NCBI GenBank assembly: GCA_902552015.1
Contig: CACDFH010000001.1
Span: 1-64,000 of the forward strand
Reading direction: 5' to 3'
Origin: an uncultured marine group I thaumarchaeote
Lineage (GTDB): Archaea > Thermoproteota > Nitrososphaeria > Nitrososphaerales > Nitrosopumilaceae
Length of the DNA stretch: 64,000 bases
Part shown: positions 45,528 to 53,270 of the stretch, piece after piece
Layout: every line of letters begins with the position of its first letter
Numbering within the stretch: the stretch's first letter is position 1
Notes under the pieces: model-generated
Told to the model about the DNA's origin: nothing
Seen by the model: only the letters and a program-made list of their open reading frames with translations
Databases searched by the model: none
Made by a program: the position numbers and the translations under genes

Positions 45528-46214
45528 TCAGGATTTTGCTTCTCTTTCTCTTTGAGCTTTGAATTTTCCACGAAATGCAAATGCTGCAATTATAGTTCCT
45601 ACAAATGGGGCTGTCCAATAAAGCCACAAATTTTCTACTACTCCTGATAATAATGCTGGGGCAAGTGCCCGGGCTGGATTCATTGATGCACCTGAAATAA
45701 ATGCCAAAAACAAAATATCTAATCCTACAATTCCTCCAATGGCTACGCCGCTAAATCCTCTCAAGCCTTTTGTGTACACAACATAAAAGATGACTCCCAT
45801 GAGCATTGCAGATGCCAAAACTTCTACTGGAAATATCAAAAGCATAGAAAAATCAAAGTTTGGTGCATTTGCACCCAAATCTGCCTTGTCTCCAATTATT
45901 GTTAAAACAAACAATGACCCTAGTATGGCGCCAATTATCTCTGCTGCAAAATAATACAAAATTTGAATTTTTGATATATGTCCTGTGATATAATACCCGA
46001 TTGTAACTGCTGGATTGAAATGTGCAAGTGATACTTTTCCAAATGAATAAACTCCAATTAGTAGTGCTACAAATGGTGCCACCGCTGCAAATGGAATTCC
46101 CAGTTCTCCGTTAAACATCTCTGCATCTAAAACAATTGAACCTGTGGCAAAAATTACAAGAATGAATGTTCCAATTAATTCAACTGTAAAAATTTGTAAA
46201 TTTGAATATGTCAT
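45528..46214 (-). CDS. MIP-family aquaporin/aquaglyceroporin
   Basis: Two NPA boxes: AHFNPAVTIG and GASMNPARAL; six TM segments. Confidence 0.93.
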   Translation of the reverse strand: MTYSNLQIFTVELIGTFILVIFATGSIVLDAEMFNGELGIPFAAVAPFVALLIGVYSFGKVSLAHFNPAVTIGYYITGHISKIQILYYFAAEIIGAILGSLFVLTIIGDKADLGANAPNFDFSMLLIFPVEVLASAMLMGVIFYVVYTKGLRGFSGVAIGGIVGLDILFLAFISGASMNPARALAPALLSGVVENLWLYWTAPFVGTIIAAFAFRGKFKAQREREAKS

Positions 46215-46621
46215 TATTTTTCATCATCTATTGATTTGATCAAATTCAAAACTTCAGATTTAATTTGATCGCGAATCTCTCTTACCTGTTCTATTGTTTT
46301 TTCTTTAGGATCTGGTATATTCCAGTCAATTACATCTTTTACAAAAAGTGCTGGACATGATTCTTTATCCATACATCCCATGTTAACGGTCTTAAAAGAA
46401 TTAGAAATCATTGAATTAGATATTGTCTTTGGAGATTGCTTTGCCATATCAATTCCAATTTCTTTCATAACTTGTACCACAATTGGATTTAGATTTCCAG
46501 ATGGAACAGTACCTGCACTATTTACATTGAACTTACCTTCTGTAAATTTTCTAAAAAATGCTTCAGCCATTTGGCTTCTACCGGCATTTTCTACGCACAC
46601 AAATAGAATATCCCTAGTCAT
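46214..46621 (-). CDS. arsC: Arsenate reductase/low-molecular-weight protein tyrosine phosphatase family
   Basis: ILFVCVENAGRSQMAEAFF P-loop; start placed at MTRDILF rather than ORF-track 46678. Confidence 0.88.
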   Translation of the reverse strand: MTRDILFVCVENAGRSQMAEAFFRKFTEGKFNVNSAGTVPSGNLNPIVVQVMKEIGIDMAKQSPKTISNSMISNSFKTVNMGCMDKESCPALFVKDVIDWNIPDPKEKTIEQVREIRDQIKSEVLNLIKSIDDEK

Positions 46622-46662
46622 AATTCTTATATAAATATGGGTTGATATAAACATTGATTGAT

Positions 46663-46962
46663 ATGAATGGTCCTGCACTTTTGAAGTGTATTTGTGATGA
46701 AACTAGATTTGAAATTTTAGAATTATTACAAAAAGACGATGAATTATGTGTCAATGATTTTGTTGAGGAATTAAAAAAAGATCAACCACTTGTTTCACAT
46801 CATCTCAAGACTCTAAAACAATGTGGAATTGTAAAATCCCGAAATGAAGGAAAAAAGACAATGTATTCGATTTCTAATCCTCAACTATCTACTTTGATAT
46901 CAGCTGTAACTAAAACAAGTAATAAAATACCAACTCTATGTACTGATGAAAACTCTTCCTAG
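46663..46962 (+). CDS. ArsR-family HTH regulator
   Basis: ICDETRFEILELLQKDDELCVNDFVEELKKDQPLVSHHLKTLKQCGIVKSRNEGKKTMYSI; divergent from arsC. Confidence 0.92.
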   Translation: MNGPALLKCICDETRFEILELLQKDDELCVNDFVEELKKDQPLVSHHLKTLKQCGIVKSRNEGKKTMYSISNPQLSTLISAVTKTSNKIPTLCTDENSS

Positions 46963-47261
46963 AATTTTTCTGTTCTAACTACGCCTACATCGCTGACATA
47001 CAGAATTATGGCAAAATCTGGAAATAATGTTCTAGAGATATCTTCTACCACTCCTGATAATTTCTCTTCTCTCATAACTACCTCCACTTTGACGTTTTTT
47101 TCATTTTTGAACCCTTGACCACGCAAGCCTTTTGCACCATTTCCTTCAACCTCGTATGTAGTATATCCTGTAATGTCATGATTCTTCAAAATTTCAATGA
47201 CATTTTTCTGGGCCAAAATTTCGCATGTGATTGTGAGTAATTTCACATCATAGAGTTTCAT
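46959..47261 (-). CDS. sbtB: PII-like protein, SbtB-type
   Basis: LKNHDITGYTTYEVEGNGAKGLRGQG; C-terminus VGVVRTEKF; ATGA overlap with sbtA. Confidence 0.82.
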   Translation of the reverse strand: MKLYDVKLLTITCEILAQKNVIEILKNHDITGYTTYEVEGNGAKGLRGQGFKNEKNVKVEVVMREEKLSGVVEDISRTLFPDFAIILYVSDVGVVRTEKF

Positions 47262-48334
47262 ATGAACACCTTTGCTACATAATTGAATAAGTCTATTGCT
47301 TCTTCACCATGAACCCATGTTGATATTGTAAACATGATTGGAAGTAATACAATAATGTTGTATGGGAATGTAATTCCTAATGCAGATGTAATGTACAAAC
47401 TTGGGTTCGCTTGTGGAATGGCATGACGTAGTACTGCAGGTGCTGCGATAAATGATGCACTAGCTAAAAGCAATCCAAACATGACTGCTCCACCTAAACT
47501 TAATCCTAGTGCTGTTGAAACTAGCACTCCAATTATTCCATTTATGGTTGGTATTATTATAGAAAATGATGTCAGGAAGATTCCTACCTTTTTGATATCT
47601 TCCAATCTTTGTCCTGCAATTATTCCCATTTCAATCATGAAAATTACAATTGCACCTGTGAATAGTTCATCAAAGACTATGCTAATTGGCTCAAAGCCTT
47701 CTTTTCCTATGATGTATCCAATTACAATACTTCCTAGCAGAATAACTATTGCCTTTCCTGTAATTGATTCTTTTAACACCTGAGAAAGTTTTGTTTTTGT
47801 CTGCTTCATTCCAATATCTAATTCCTCATCATCTGAAATGGACTGTTTTTTTGTACGAATTTGTTTTGAGACTGCCATGTTTGTAAGAAATATTGCCAAG
47901 ATGAATGCAACCGGCTCTAAAACTGCAAGAATTGCAGCAAGATATCCTTCTGAAGTGACCCCTTGATTTTTGAGAAATGATAATCCTACCGAGAATGTTA
48001 CAGCTCCTACTGCGCCATAAGTTGATGCTAATGCATATGAATCAAAGATGTTGAATTTTCCTAGTCTTCTTAGAATCTGATAATGATTTAATGTAAATAA
48101 CAATGAAAGACCTATTGCAACTAGCATTGGGACTAACATTTCTTCAAAGCCCGTCTTTCTCATCTCTATTCCGCCATGAAGTCCAATAGCGGCTAGAAGA
48201 TATATCGGCAAAAACTCTGAAATTGCCTCTGGCATCTTCAAGTCAGATTTTATTCGTGCTGCAATAATTCCAAACAGGAAGAAAAGGACTATTGGAGTTA
48301 ACAGATTCGATTGGATTAGTTGTAAAATATCCAT
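47258..48334 (-). CDS. sbtA: SbtA-type sodium-dependent bicarbonate transporter family protein
   Basis: NLLTPIVLFFLFGIIAARIKSDLKMPEAISEFLPIYLLAAIGLHGG; about 10 TM segments; coupled to PII-like gene. Confidence 0.85.
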   Translation of the reverse strand: MDILQLIQSNLLTPIVLFFLFGIIAARIKSDLKMPEAISEFLPIYLLAAIGLHGGIEMRKTGFEEMLVPMLVAIGLSLLFTLNHYQILRRLGKFNIFDSYALASTYGAVGAVTFSVGLSFLKNQGVTSEGYLAAILAVLEPVAFILAIFLTNMAVSKQIRTKKQSISDDEELDIGMKQTKTKLSQVLKESITGKAIVILLGSIVIGYIIGKEGFEPISIVFDELFTGAIVIFMIEMGIIAGQRLEDIKKVGIFLTSFSIIIPTINGIIGVLVSTALGLSLGGAVMFGLLLASASFIAAPAVLRHAIPQANPSLYITSALGITFPYNIIVLLPIMFTISTWVHGEEAIDLFNYVAKVFI

Positions 48335-48371
48335 TACTTATGTTTGAAAAAATTTTCAGCTGAAATAAAAA

Positions 48372-49007
48372 TCAACCACTAGGTTCTATCTTATGTTTTC
48401 CTGTGACAATATAGTTTACTGCATCGCTCATGAAAACAGCGTGGTCTGCAATTCTTTCCAAATATCTCAAAATCAATGTCTCCATTAATGCACATTTTGT
48501 GTTATCTGAGTTAACTAATTGAGGAATTCTTTCACGATAAATTTTATCAACTTTTTCCTCTCTTGTTTCAATCTCGATTGCTTTTCTAATATCTAGTTCC
48601 TTAAACGAAACTACTGCATCACGAATCATCTTTTTTACTCTAGTTGATGTTTCGGTTAATCCTTCATTGACACATTCTGTTACTCCACCATAGGTTTCTC
48701 TAACAAGTGACATATCGTATGCATACCTTCCAAATCTTGAATATGCGTAAGCAATTTCTGTTGATGATCTAATAAATCGAAAGTCTTCTGCAATTGGTTG
48801 ATATTTTAACATGATATCAAAAATCTGGTCTTCTACACTGTAGTAATTTTTTCGAATTTTTTCTGATAAATCATGAACTTGTGGCGCTGTTTGTCTATCT
48901 TCTAGGTATGAATCTACGGCTAAGGAAAAACATGTAATTGCATCTTGACCCATCTCATAAATAGTATTAGACAATTTTTCAATTGCAGGATCAATAAGTC
49001 GTGCCAA
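48372..49007 (-). CDS. phoU: PhoU-domain phosphate regulatory protein
   Basis: LILRYLERIADHAVFMSDAVNYIVTG; next to pstBAC. Confidence 0.93.
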   Translation of the reverse strand: MARLIDPAIEKLSNTIYEMGQDAITCFSLAVDSYLEDRQTAPQVHDLSEKIRKNYYSVEDQIFDIMLKYQPIAEDFRFIRSSTEIAYAYSRFGRYAYDMSLVRETYGGVTECVNEGLTETSTRVKKMIRDAVVSFKELDIRKAIEIETREEKVDKIYRERIPQLVNSDNTKCALMETLILRYLERIADHAVFMSDAVNYIVTGKHKIEPSG

Positions 49008-49874
49008 CTATCCAAATCTCCCTTGTACGTAATTTGCAGTCAGTTCCTTTTCTGGATTCTTGAAAATCTTTTCAGTTTTGTCATATTCGACCAAATCTCC
49101 CAAATACATGAAGCCTGTTCTATCTGAAACCCTAAGTGCTTGTTGCATGTTATGTGTTACAATAATTATTGTATAATGTTTCTTTAATTCGATAATTGTT
49201 TGTTCAATTTTCTGTGTAGCAATTGGGTCTAGTGCAGATGCTGGCTCATCCATAAGTAATACCTCTGGTTGTATAGCAAGCGCTCTTGCAATACACAGTC
49301 TTTGCTGTTGTCCTCCTGATAATGCAACTGCAGGTTTTTTCAATTCATCTTTCACCTCGTCCCATAGATATGCCATCTTTAATGAATCTTCTATAATCTC
49401 GTTTAGGATGCTCTTGTCTTTTACACCGTTGAGCTTCAATCCTGCTGCAACATTGTCCCAAATTGACATTGTTGGAAATGGATTTGGTTTCTGGAACACC
49501 ATTCCAATTTTTCTTCTTTGTAAAATTGGATTGATGTAGGAATCGTACACATTTTCTCCATCAATGATGATTTTGCCTGTAACTTCTGCACCTTTTGTTA
49601 AATCATGCATTCTGTTAATGGTTCGTAGAAGTGTGGTCTTTCCACATCCTGATGGGCCGATTAATGCAGTAACTGCCTTGTCTGGAATTTTCATGTTAAT
49701 GTCTTTGATTGCTGTTTTTCCACTGTATGATACAGCCAAATTTTCAATCAAAACTTTGTATTCCTTGTTACTTGCTATGTCATTTGTCATCTTTTTTCCT
49801 GGTTCGTTTCTTTTTGTTGGTGGCTGTTCGTCTTTTTTCATTGCGTTTAAGACATCCAAGGCATTAATTTCCAT
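49008..49874 (-). CDS. pstB: Phosphate ABC transporter ATP-binding protein
   Basis: [57 protein letters not shown]. Confidence 0.97.
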
Positions 49875-50800
49875 TATTTTTTACCTCCTGTTATGCGCAT
49901 AAACATTCCAAGCGATCCTGAACCACCTTTTCTGTGAAGAACAATGTATCTGACACCCATATTCAATACAAGAAGTATTGTTATTAGTACTAATGCAGCT
50001 CCCCATCCAAACATCACTGCATCATCGTATGGTAAAAGTGACAATCTCCAAATTGTTAATGGAAGTGCATCCATTGCAGTTTCTGTACCTCTAAACCATC
50101 CCTTACTTCCTAAAATTGTCATGATTAGTGGTGCAGTTTCTCCAGCAATTCTTGCAACTGACAGCATAACTCCTGTAACTATCCCACCTTTTGCTGCTGT
50201 AAGTAAAATTTTTACAGTGACAACTGCTTTTGGAATTCCTAACGCATGTCCTGCTTCTCTGTATGTATCTGGAATTAATTTTAATGCCTCTTCTGTAGTT
50301 CTTGCAATTATTGGGAACATAATTAGTGAAAGTGCAACTGCTCCTGCCCATAAATTGAATTTTCCTAAGACTAGGACAATAAACAAGAATGCAAAAATTC
50401 CAAAGACGATTGATGGGAACTGCATCATGACATCATTGAAAAATCTAATCATTTTTCCAACTCTTGAATTTGCATATTCTGCAACATAAATTCCAGATAA
50501 TACTCCAATTGGAATTCCTATAGTAGATGTCATTCCAATCATTATGAAAGTACCTTGAATTGAGTTTGCAATACCTCCTTCGCCAGAACCTGCAGCACCT
50601 GGCAATGCCGTAAGAAACTCAAATGAAATTATCTCTACTCCCATTCTTACAACATCCGCTAAGATGCTTCCAAGTGGAATAATTGCAATTGCAACACATG
50701 CTATGACAATTATCTTGATAACCTTGTCTGTAACCATTCTTTTTCCTAGATTATCTTGGAAATAATTTCTAAATTCTAATCTGCGTTCTGAACTACTCAA
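49874..50800 (-). CDS. pstA: Phosphate ABC transporter permease
   Basis: Permease TMs; [45 protein letters not shown]. Confidence 0.95.
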
Positions 50801-51771
50801 AATCCTTTGATACCTCCTTCGTGTGCATTTGTTACTCTACGAATAATCAGATGCGCGCATACATTGATTCCTAGTGATACAAACAAGAGAATTAATCCTA
50901 ATCCAATGAGTGCAGGAAAGTACAATGAAACTGGTGATGCTTCATTGAATTCGTTTGCAATAATACTTGCAAGTGAATTTCCCTGTTGGAAAAATCCAAA
51001 CGGAAATGCCTTTGGTCCAACTGCATTTCCAATTAACATTGTAACAGCCATAGTTTCTCCAACTGCTCTACCTAATCCTAGAATTGATGCGCCAATCAAA
51101 CCTGATTTTGCATATGGCAATACTGACATTCTAAATACTTCCCATTTTGTGGCACCTAGCATGTATGCTGCTTCTCTTTGAATTGCAGGAACTGCCAGTA
51201 AAATTTCACGTGATACTGCAGAAATTGTAGGAATAATCATTATTGCTAAAACAACACTTGCAGTTAGAATGTCCAGTCCAAATGGTGCATCTCTGAACAA
51301 AAAGATATGTTCACCTAGCGCTTCATGTGTGGGACTTTCAAACCAATCCTTGAAAACTATTCTGAATGTAAACAAACCCCATAATCCATAGATGATACTT
51401 GGAACTGCGGCTAACAATTCTACTACAAAAGAAATTGGCTCTCGAATTCTTGTAGGTGCAATTTCTGAAAGAAACATTGCAATTCCAATACTGAGAGGCA
51501 CTGCAATGCATAATGCAATTAATGATGTCACTAACGTTCCTGCTATGTATGGTAATGCGCCAAAGGATTCACGGCCTTCTACAGGATTCCATCTATCTCC
51601 TGTTACAAATGCCAATCCTTCTTTTTCCCAGATTAACCAAGAATCTGATAACAATTGACCAAAAATTAATACAATGATTAGTAAAACAAACGCACCTGCA
51701 CAAGTAGCTGCAATTTTGAAGATGCTATCCCAATGAAAATTTCTTTTCTTTGCTAATAGATCTCTTGACAA
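50797..51771 (-). CDS. pstC: Phosphate ABC transporter permease
   Basis: EAAYMLGATKWEVFRMSVLPYAKSGLIGASILGLGRAVGETMAVTMLIG. Confidence 0.95.
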   Translation of the reverse strand: MSRDLLAKKRNFHWDSIFKIAATCAGAFVLLIIVLIFGQLLSDSWLIWEKEGLAFVTGDRWNPVEGRESFGALPYIAGTLVTSLIALCIAVPLSIGIAMFLSEIAPTRIREPISFVVELLAAVPSIIYGLWGLFTFRIVFKDWFESPTHEALGEHIFLFRDAPFGLDILTASVVLAIMIIPTISAVSREILLAVPAIQREAAYMLGATKWEVFRMSVLPYAKSGLIGASILGLGRAVGETMAVTMLIGNAVGPKAFPFGFFQQGNSLASIIANEFNEASPVSLYFPALIGLGLILLFVSLGINVCAHLIIRRVTNAHEGGIKGF

Positions 51772-51841
51772 TGCTTACACATTTTTTTCATTTCTGAAGT
51801 TATTACCTTGGATCTACGTTGTCTATATAGTACCATATACC

Positions 51842-51862
51842 ATCTATTGATCATCAGTATAT
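51842..51862. promoter_or_regulatory. Shared pst motif copy 1
   Basis: ATCTATTGATCATCAGTATAT in the pstC/pstS divergent intergenic region; 19/21 match to 53388-53408. Confidence 0.6.
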
Positions 51863-51884
51863 GCAAAATTTATTACAATAAGTT

Positions 51885-53270
51885 ATGACTAAGCGGATCG
51901 TGGCAATCACTACGTCTTTACTAATGACGATTCTCTTGATACCCGCATCTGCATTTGCATCATCACCTGTTGAGCCAGATCCAGGTGTAGATGTGCAAAT
52001 TGATGCAGCCGGTGCATCTTTTCCATTTCCATTAATTGATCTATGGAGAGTTGAATATGGAAAATTATATCCAAATGTTCAACTGAATTATCAATCAATA
52101 GGTAGTGGTGGCGGTGTCAAAAATCACATATCTGAAACTATAGTATTTGCTGCATCTGACGCTCCACTAAAACCAACAGAGAGTGAAGCTGCACCAAACA
52201 CACTACACATACCTGAAGCAATCGGTGCAGTAACTATTGCATATAATTTGCCTGGCATGTCCGAATCAGGACTAAAACTTACCGGCGAGGTTATTGCAGA
52301 TATCTTCTTAGGAAAAATTACAAAATTCAATGATCCTGCAATTCAGAATTTGAATCCAGAAGTTTCATTACCTGATGAGGATATTGTAGTTGCACATCGT
52401 TCTGATGGTGCTGGCACAACCTTCGTCTTTGTCTCATACTTGGCAAAAGTTAGTCAGGAATGGGATGAAAAAGTGGGTGTAGGGAAAAGTGTAGAATGGC
52501 CAGCAGGTATTGGTGGAAAAGGCAACGAAGGCGTTGCAAATGTTGTAAAGACTACGCCATATTCAATTGGATATATTGAACTTGCATATGCATTCCAAAA
52601 TAATATTCCTTATGCTGCAGTAGAAAATGCTGATGGAACCAACTTTGTTCTACCATCAATGCAAAGCATTGCTGCTGCTTCAGCAGGCGCTGCACCAGCT
52701 CTTCCACAGGCACATGAAAGTTGGTATGGAATAAGCATAATCAATGCACCTGGAGATGACTCGTATCCTATATCGACATTTACTTACTTGCTAGTATATG
52801 AGAATCTGAATAATGTAACAAATGATCCTGATACTGCACAAGCCCTCGTGCACATGATTTACTGGATGATAACTGATGGTCAAAAATTCAATGAAAGTTT
52901 ACACTATGTTCCAATTGCACCTGAAGTACAAAAAATAGGAATTGATGGTCTAAAAAGAGTTCAATTCAATGGAGAATCTGCATGGATTGAATCTGATATT
53001 CCTACAGCTGTTACTGAACAAGCAAGTACTCCATCATACGCACAACCAACTGCTACTCCACAACCAACTGCTACTCCACAACCAACTGCTACTCCACAAC
53101 CAACTGCTACTCCACAACCAACTCAATCCATTAGTTCAGAAATGGAATTGTTATCTTTCTACATAACTGCATTAATTGCTTTGATAGCTATCGCAGTAAT
53201 TCTAGTTATAATTCTGATAATAGTTAACATGTCATTAGTTGCATCAATCAAGAAACAAATCAAAAATTAA
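51885..53270 (+). CDS. pstS: Phosphate-binding protein PstS with Thr/Pro linker and C-terminal TM
   Basis: DAAGASFPFPLIDLWRVEYGKLYPNVQLNYQSIGSGGGVKN, VAHRSDGAGTTFVFVSYL; (PTATPQ)n then TM. Confidence 0.95.
   Translation: MTKRIVAITTSLLMTILLIPASAFASSPVEPDPGVDVQIDAAGASFPFPLIDLWRVEYGKLYPNVQLNYQSIGSGGGVKNHISETIVFAASDAPLKPTESEAAPNTLHIPEAIGAVTIAYNLPGMSESGLKLTGEVIADIFLGKITKFNDPAIQNLNPEVSLPDEDIVVAHRSDGAGTTFVFVSYLAKVSQEWDEKVGVGKSVEWPAGIGGKGNEGVANVVKTTPYSIGYIELAYAFQNNIPYAAVENADGTNFVLPSMQSIAAASAGAAPALPQAHESWYGISIINAPGDDSYPISTFTYLLVYENLNNVTNDPDTAQALVHMIYWMITDGQKFNESLHYVPIAPEVQKIGIDGLKRVQFNGESAWIESDIPTAVTEQASTPSYAQPTATPQPTATPQPTATPQPTATPQPTQSISSEMELLSFYITALIALIAIAVILVIILIIVNMSLVASIKKQIKN
53043..53114 (+). 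repeat. Four tandem 18-bp repeats encoding PTATPQ-type linker
   Basis: CAACCAACTGCTACTCCA x4, followed by partial CAACCAACT. Confidence 0.9.

Follow-up and report, generated by a model that had tools for sequence, protein, structure and literature searches.

A conserved Sbt_1 transporter and PII-like protein pair of Nitrosopumilaceae, related to cyanobacterial SbtA–SbtB and with a divergent binding pocket

Among the closest described systems is the cyanobacterial pair SbtA–SbtB. The Na+ site of Synechocystis SbtA is formed by backbone atoms of F110, G111, A112, A320 and S322, and bicarbonate, which was docked and not directly seen, has side-chain contacts to S114, Y140, S324 and S327; alanine mutants at these contacts lose 60–90% of the activity, and the T-loop of Synechocystis SbtB enters the SbtA cleft (Liu et al., PMC8352866). 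SbtA in Nitrososphaerota including Nitrosopelagicus brevis has already been reported by Scott and co-workers in 2024, and archaea using the 3-hydroxypropionate/4-hydroxybutyrate (HP/HB) cycle that possess SbtA tend to lack a cytoplasmic carbonic anhydrase, N. brevis being the exception with both (PMC10880623). Moreover, Na+-dependent bicarbonate transporters have been called ubiquitous and are present in Nitrosopumilus genomes (PMC7265257), and the published gene list of N. brevis contains both PII and SBT (PMC9239043). The presence of the transporter in this lineage is thus known and what seems to be new are its obligate pairing with a PII-like gene and its altered pocket, as no paper on either was found in the literature searched, subscription journals being outside its scope.

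We analyzed such a pair in a stretch of 64,000 nucleotides of Nitrosopumilaceae DNA (the window), in which the following features are relevant:

47258..48334, minus strand: sbtA-like gene, 358 aa, membrane transporter of the Sbt_1 family (PF05982, TC 2.A.83 kind)
46959..47261, minus strand: PII-like (sbtB-like) gene, 100 aa, with a short T-loop and without R-loop; the overlap of its start with the stop of sbtA is ATGA
48359..48375, minus strand: conserved box TTGATTTTTATTTCAGC, probably the TATA-type promoter for sbtAB, beginning at the phoU stop
46654..46962, plus strand: ArsR-family regulator, convergent with the PII-like gene and probably a separate unit
46214..46621, minus strand: arsenate-reductase-like low-molecular-weight phosphatase (ArsC-like), neighbour gene
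45528..46214, minus strand: MIP/aquaporin-family channel, neighbour gene
48372..48977, minus strand: phoU, the gene that closes pstCAB-phoU; in this genome it precedes sbtA by 37 bp

The four letters ATGA at 47258-47261 contain both the stop of sbtA and the start of the PII-like gene. Searched against PF05982 (Sbt_1), the transporter reaches 348 bits (cut-off 27, E 5e-104) and covers profile positions 1-306 of 308, and its only good relative in the PDB is SbtA from Synechocystis (7cye, E 1e-36), with homology along almost its whole length. NCBIfam yielded neither an SbtA nor an SbtB model. The closest named genome is a Candidatus Nitrosopelagicus MAG, whose SbtA is 98% identical.

The PII-like protein matches PF00543 with 59.7 bits (cut-off 25, E 4e-16), and its best relatives in the PDB are TTHA0516 (2cz4, 3.5e-14) followed by SbtB, both well ahead of GlnB/GlnK. 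An AlphaFold2 (AF2) model of the protein (pLDDT 83) led in a Foldseek search to 2cz4 (2e-8) and to the SbtB chain of the SbtA–SbtB complex (7egk_B, 4e-7). A nitrogen PII of the GlnB/GlnK type was rejected, as PRK10665 gave only 15.7 bits against an equivalog cut-off of 181 and the GlnK matches in the PDB were weak. The protein ends with VGVVRTEKF, an ending shared by all 26 aligned relatives, and neither in it nor in these relatives is a Cys pair or CGPxGC R-loop found at the C-terminus. Since about half of the cyanobacterial SbtBs are also without R-loop (PMC10991534), its absence is not distinctive; sensing of AMP, ADP and ATP is the default expectation for SbtBs of this kind (PMC10991534). 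Class III nucleotide cyclase genes were detected in 9/10 genomes checked and cAMP is therefore a possible ligand or signal. Up to seven class III cyclase domains per genome were counted in G123, G227, G171 and the other genomes checked, a number above our expectation for archaea.

Common to 26/26 aligned archaeal PII-like sequences are G40, G42, G45, R47, G50, the run E54-K55-N56 and the R96/EKF end, and the start of the T-loop is kept as G-x-G-x-[RK]-G-x-R including an invariant Arg. The T-loop is 4 residues shorter than in cyanobacterial SbtB, with GNGAKGLRG in the window sequence versus GKGSRNVRS. The partner proteins from Arthrobacter and Pseudomonas show the same 4-residue shortening, and the T-loop of TTHA0516 is 5 residues shorter. 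As it is the T-loop that enters the SbtA cleft in Synechocystis, docking in the archaea may differ in detail, and the shorter loop may not reach into the cleft in the cyanobacterial manner.

In order to see how strictly the two genes belong together we collected 115 distinct archaeal sbtA loci, the downstream side being assessable in 114. All 114 have a PII-like gene directly downstream of sbtA on the same strand, showing that the arrangement is not due to chance. In a selection of 51 genomes, 50 of which have a completeness of 90% or more, the PII-like protein is present in 28/28 Sbt-positive and in 0/23 Sbt-negative genomes, although both this and the 114-locus count come from related genomes and are not independent. 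The two-copy genomes G102, G171 and G227 carry two PII-like copies, each adjoining an sbtA. Taken together this is strong evidence for the PII-like protein being a dedicated partner of SbtA. Within the genus of the window a PF00543 protein of any type occurs in 14/14 Sbt-positive relatives and is absent in 11/12 Sbt-negative ones. Nitrosopelagicus genomes without both Sbt and any PF00543 are G260, G265, G290, G320, G345, G352, G374, G380, G388, G394 and G398, and G371 has no Sbt yet one PF00543 match.

Some loci deviate from the main type. A second, divergent Sbt–PII pair was found in L133, L135, L136 and L137, which is 62–65% identical to the window copy and in which the pocket glycine is followed by TS and not by VT/VH, and some of these pairs are located in genomes also carrying the main type. 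At L070:4001-5074 there is a stop inside the sbtA reading frame, and at L014:2601-3787 the end of sbtA and the start of the PII-like gene are altered; both cases might reflect an assembly error or decay.

The first-pass annotation had described an SbtA-like transporter coupled to an SbtB-like PII protein without the C-terminal Cys-containing R-loop in a probable ammonia-oxidising archaeon. Its coordinates, minus strand and ATGA overlap are correct, and we could confirm the family placement, the PII-like identity of the SbtB/TTHA0516 kind, the missing R-loop and the coupling of both genes; the match of the predicted structure to the SbtB chain points in the same direction. The assignment to an ammonia oxidiser is also right because of the 98% identity to the Nitrosopelagicus MAG. 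For the name SbtB only a part can be kept, namely the gene coupled to sbtA and the PII-like fold, but not the cyanobacterial T-loop length and the GKGSRNVRS motif.

The distribution of the transporter is patchy. In a sample of 400 genomes of the order, 119 had PF05982 above the cut-off; almost all of these belong to Nitrosopumilaceae and one genome each to the families f3 and f8, and the phylum sample gave no match above the cut-off outside the order. Sbt is present in 14/26 other genomes of the window's genus, two of the Sbt-lacking ones being more than 90% complete, and many other near-complete Nitrosopumilaceae genomes are also without it. As it is missing in about half of the sampled Nitrosopelagicus and in many near-complete relatives, it is not essential for autotrophy.

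To take a closer look at the binding pocket we aligned 123 distinct Sbt sequences, a comparison at the sequence level, as an AF2 model of SbtA based on 25 aligned close homologues (pLDDT 49) gave no support for the pocket. The positions S114, Y140, S324 and S327 correspond to G110, L136, S294 and A297 in the window protein, leaving only S324 unchanged. All aligned archaeal sequences share this Gly, Leu and Ala and the retained S324, and within the aligned set the exchange of S114 for Gly is unique to them. Two cyanobacterial plasmid copies retain all four contacts, and ten non-cyanobacterial bacterial copies have only S114 and S324 of the four. The Na+-site positions are Y-G-A, L290 and S292 in the window SbtA and show YG[AS] in place of FGA with S322 kept in the archaeal homologues, but a site made from backbone contacts is beyond a judgement at this level. 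In a maximum-likelihood tree the cyanobacterial SbtA are split from the bacterial and archaeal sequences with a support of 100/100, and the archaeal sequences hold together (98/99), even if long branches make their finer placement unsure. The nearest relatives found are Sbt homologues of heterotrophic bacteria, which are closer than cyanobacterial SbtA.

These data also bear on the possibility that the pair is a regulated Sbt_1 transporter for another small anion such as formate, another carboxylate or an oxyanion, and that the name bicarbonate transporter was simply inherited from cyanobacteria. Every archaeal sequence departs from three of the four side-chain contacts, the S114G exchange being archaeal-only in the aligned set, the closest relatives found belong to heterotrophs, and the SbtA-like protein from Labrenzia alexandrii, the only non-cyanobacterial one in an E. 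coli uptake screen, was inactive (PMC4275256). Furthermore, expression of SO_3758 from Shewanella, an Sbt homologue in which serines corresponding to S322 and S324 are present, raises formate tolerance in Zymomonas. Nevertheless, we regard a different anion as rather unlikely, as the archaeal proteins retain S322, S324 and the backbone region of the Na+ site, the list of contacts is derived from docked bicarbonate (PMC8352866) so that the backbone contacts alone may matter, an HP/HB autotroph requires bicarbonate, and marine cyanobacterial SbtA2 proteins carry bicarbonate though they are divergent in behaviour. Placement in the family is thus firm, but not the substrate. For bicarbonate speak the nearly full-length homology to 7cye, the kept S322/S324 and Na+ region and the same call in the published DIC-toolkit survey; against it stand the changed S114, Y140 and S327, the inactive Labrenzia protein and the heterotroph relatives, and the patchy occurrence and the short T-loop speak against the model favoured below. 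On balance bicarbonate is quite probably the cargo. The changed pocket residues are also a warning that an automatic label as bicarbonate transporter may not hold. The first-pass annotation can therefore be followed for the Sbt_1 family, the PII-like partner, the tight coupling, the autotrophic archaeon and the missing R-loop, but neither for bicarbonate as an established substrate nor for SbtB in the cyanobacterial sense, and a cyanobacterial-type SbtA is contradicted by the three changed contacts and the grouping on the heterotroph side. The pair is real, conserved and probably regulated, and it is a variant of SbtA–SbtB and not a member of the cyanobacterial type.

Most Nitrosopumilaceae have ArsR, ArsC-like and aquaporin genes beside sbtAB (45528-46962 in the window; L002-L150), which in divergent genera are rearranged and still close. 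An ArsR-family gene is a conserved neighbour in 63/89 loci and the ArsC-like phosphatase is located within 3 kb downstream in 74/89, and in L033, L050 and L074 the PII-like and the ArsC-like gene are separated by about 1.2 kb of additional DNA. This set resembles the ArsC–AqpS arsenate module of Sinorhizobium, the AqpS of which has been described (PMC9454679). On the other side, pstCAB-phoU with a divergent pstS lies immediately upstream of sbtA in the window (48372-53270), and the PstS-like protein (51885-53270) contains a TATPQP-type repeat linker before its C-terminal membrane segment. Other loci hold different genes upstream of sbtA, and this variability fits the swapping of pst/pit cassettes beside phoU described for N. 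brevis (PMC9239043). In the same work Atlantic and Pacific N. brevis were compared, and the genes with the strongest differentiation include a colocalised group of phoU, MIP, PII, SBT and a winged-helix protein (PMC9239043), a gene set that we infer to be the present locus.

From these neighbours one could argue that sbtAB is part of a phosphate/arsenic island and serves phosphate or arsenate stress, for example through oxyanion or charge balance, and not carbon supply. It would explain the ArsC-like and aquaporin genes near sbtAB in most loci and, rearranged, in the divergent lineages L132, L134, L140-L144 and L146, the position of sbtAB after pstCAB-phoU on the same strand in the window, and the high differentiation of phoU, MIP, PII and SBT, and Sinorhizobium is known for an arsenic module of ArsR–AqpS–ArsC. 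We consider it improbable, as the phosphatase–aquaporin pair occurs also in Sbt-lacking genomes and apart from sbt in G034, G080 and G227 and is therefore a separate module, which weakens an arsenic reading of sbtAB, and neither arsC-like gene nor aquaporin is nearby in 10/74 well-flanked loci. According to its authors the FST signal at phoU-MIP-PII-SBT may be due to hitch-hiking (PMC9239043), and phoU is immediately upstream of sbtA in only 17/110 loci. In addition, a conserved box belongs to sbtA itself: TTGRTTTTTATTTCAGC or a variant close to it lies about 25-40 bp ahead of the gene in most Nitrosopumilaceae loci, no matter whether the preceding gene is phoU, pstS or another one. The exact box occurs once in the window, and in eight genomes 5/7 near-exact copies are located at sbtA, compared to 0 for the reversed control; no recognisable carbon gene follows the other two near-copies (L164, L170). 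The box is probably the TATA-type promoter of the sbtAB unit itself. Co-transcription with pst-phoU was set aside for the rarity of phoU at this position and the independence of the box from it. That the PII-like protein is merely co-transcribed and signals to other targets like metabolic enzymes or Amt without gating SbtA is very improbable, since, even though cyanobacterial SbtB has further targets (e.g., GlgB, BicA and CmpC) and a longer T-loop, the archaeal protein never occurs without SbtA in the 51 genomes and is always adjacent with one copy per transporter.

We thus favour, with moderate confidence, a Na+-coupled importer of an anion, most likely bicarbonate, that is gated by an adenylate-sensing PII-like trimer. 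In this model sbtA and the overlapping PII-like gene make up an operon of two genes, which probably has a promoter to itself, and SbtA would be a trimeric, Na+-driven importer of the elevator type for a small anion, most likely bicarbonate, feeding the bicarbonate-using carboxylases of the HP/HB cycle. In the clefts between its subunits the PII-like trimer might sense the adenylate state (AMP/ADP versus ATP, possibly cAMP), its T-loops would dock on the cytoplasmic side of SbtA, and at low energy or carbon demand it would close or plug the transporter. Such plugging might prevent futile Na+ cycling or bicarbonate leak. No beta-carbonic anhydrase above the cut-off was found in these genomes, consistent with an imported bicarbonate pool that is not dissipated. 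An obligate PII-like partner would extend the adenylate-controlled gating of transporters in the cyanobacterial CCM to autotrophic archaea without carboxysomes. More speculatively, it is possible that the ammonia oxidisers of the Nitrosopumilaceae possess a distinct Sbt class with a pocket remodelled to Gly/Leu/Ala and its own PII-like gate with a short T-loop, importing an anion outside the cyanobacterial CCM with an altered substrate chemistry or selectivity, the possession of which splits otherwise similar Nitrosopelagicus populations.

Compared to known systems, the locus agrees with cyanobacterial SbtA–SbtB (Slr1512–Slr1513; PDB 7cyf, 7egk) in transporter family, PII-like fold, gene order and the residues S322 and S324, and the R-loop is absent as in SbtB from Cyanobium. 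It differs in the transporter, which shows 27-30% identity to plasmid-borne cyanobacterial copies, G/L/A at S114/Y140/S327 and a separate clade (100/100), and in the regulator, whose T-loop is shortened by the 4 residues and starts with GxGx[RK]GxR instead of GxGSRNVRS. The Sbt_1 and PII-like pairs of heterotrophs (Arthrobacter and Pseudomonas plasmids) share 35-38% transporter identity, adjacency, the short T-loop and L/A at Y140/S327 with the archaeal ones, and the order of transporter followed by PII gene is common to Arthrobacter, Pseudomonas and cyanobacteria; at S114 these bacterial copies have Ser, in contrast to the Gly of all archaeal ones, which group in a clade of their own (98/99). 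SbtA of Nitrososphaerota in the survey by Scott and co-workers (PMC10880623) is the same kind of transporter from the same lineage, Nitrosopelagicus brevis included, but the main text is without mention of PII and the check applied was for transmembrane helices and not for binding-site residues. CPII from Thiomonas intermedia (5d4o, solved with bicarbonate) has the PII-like fold and a carbon-linked ligand in common and is a weaker match. The best match of the PII-like protein in sequence and fold is TTHA0516 from Thermus thermophilus (2cz4, function unknown) with about 34% identity and a similarly short T-loop, and as a control Thermus composti was seen to have an Sbt_1 gene as well.
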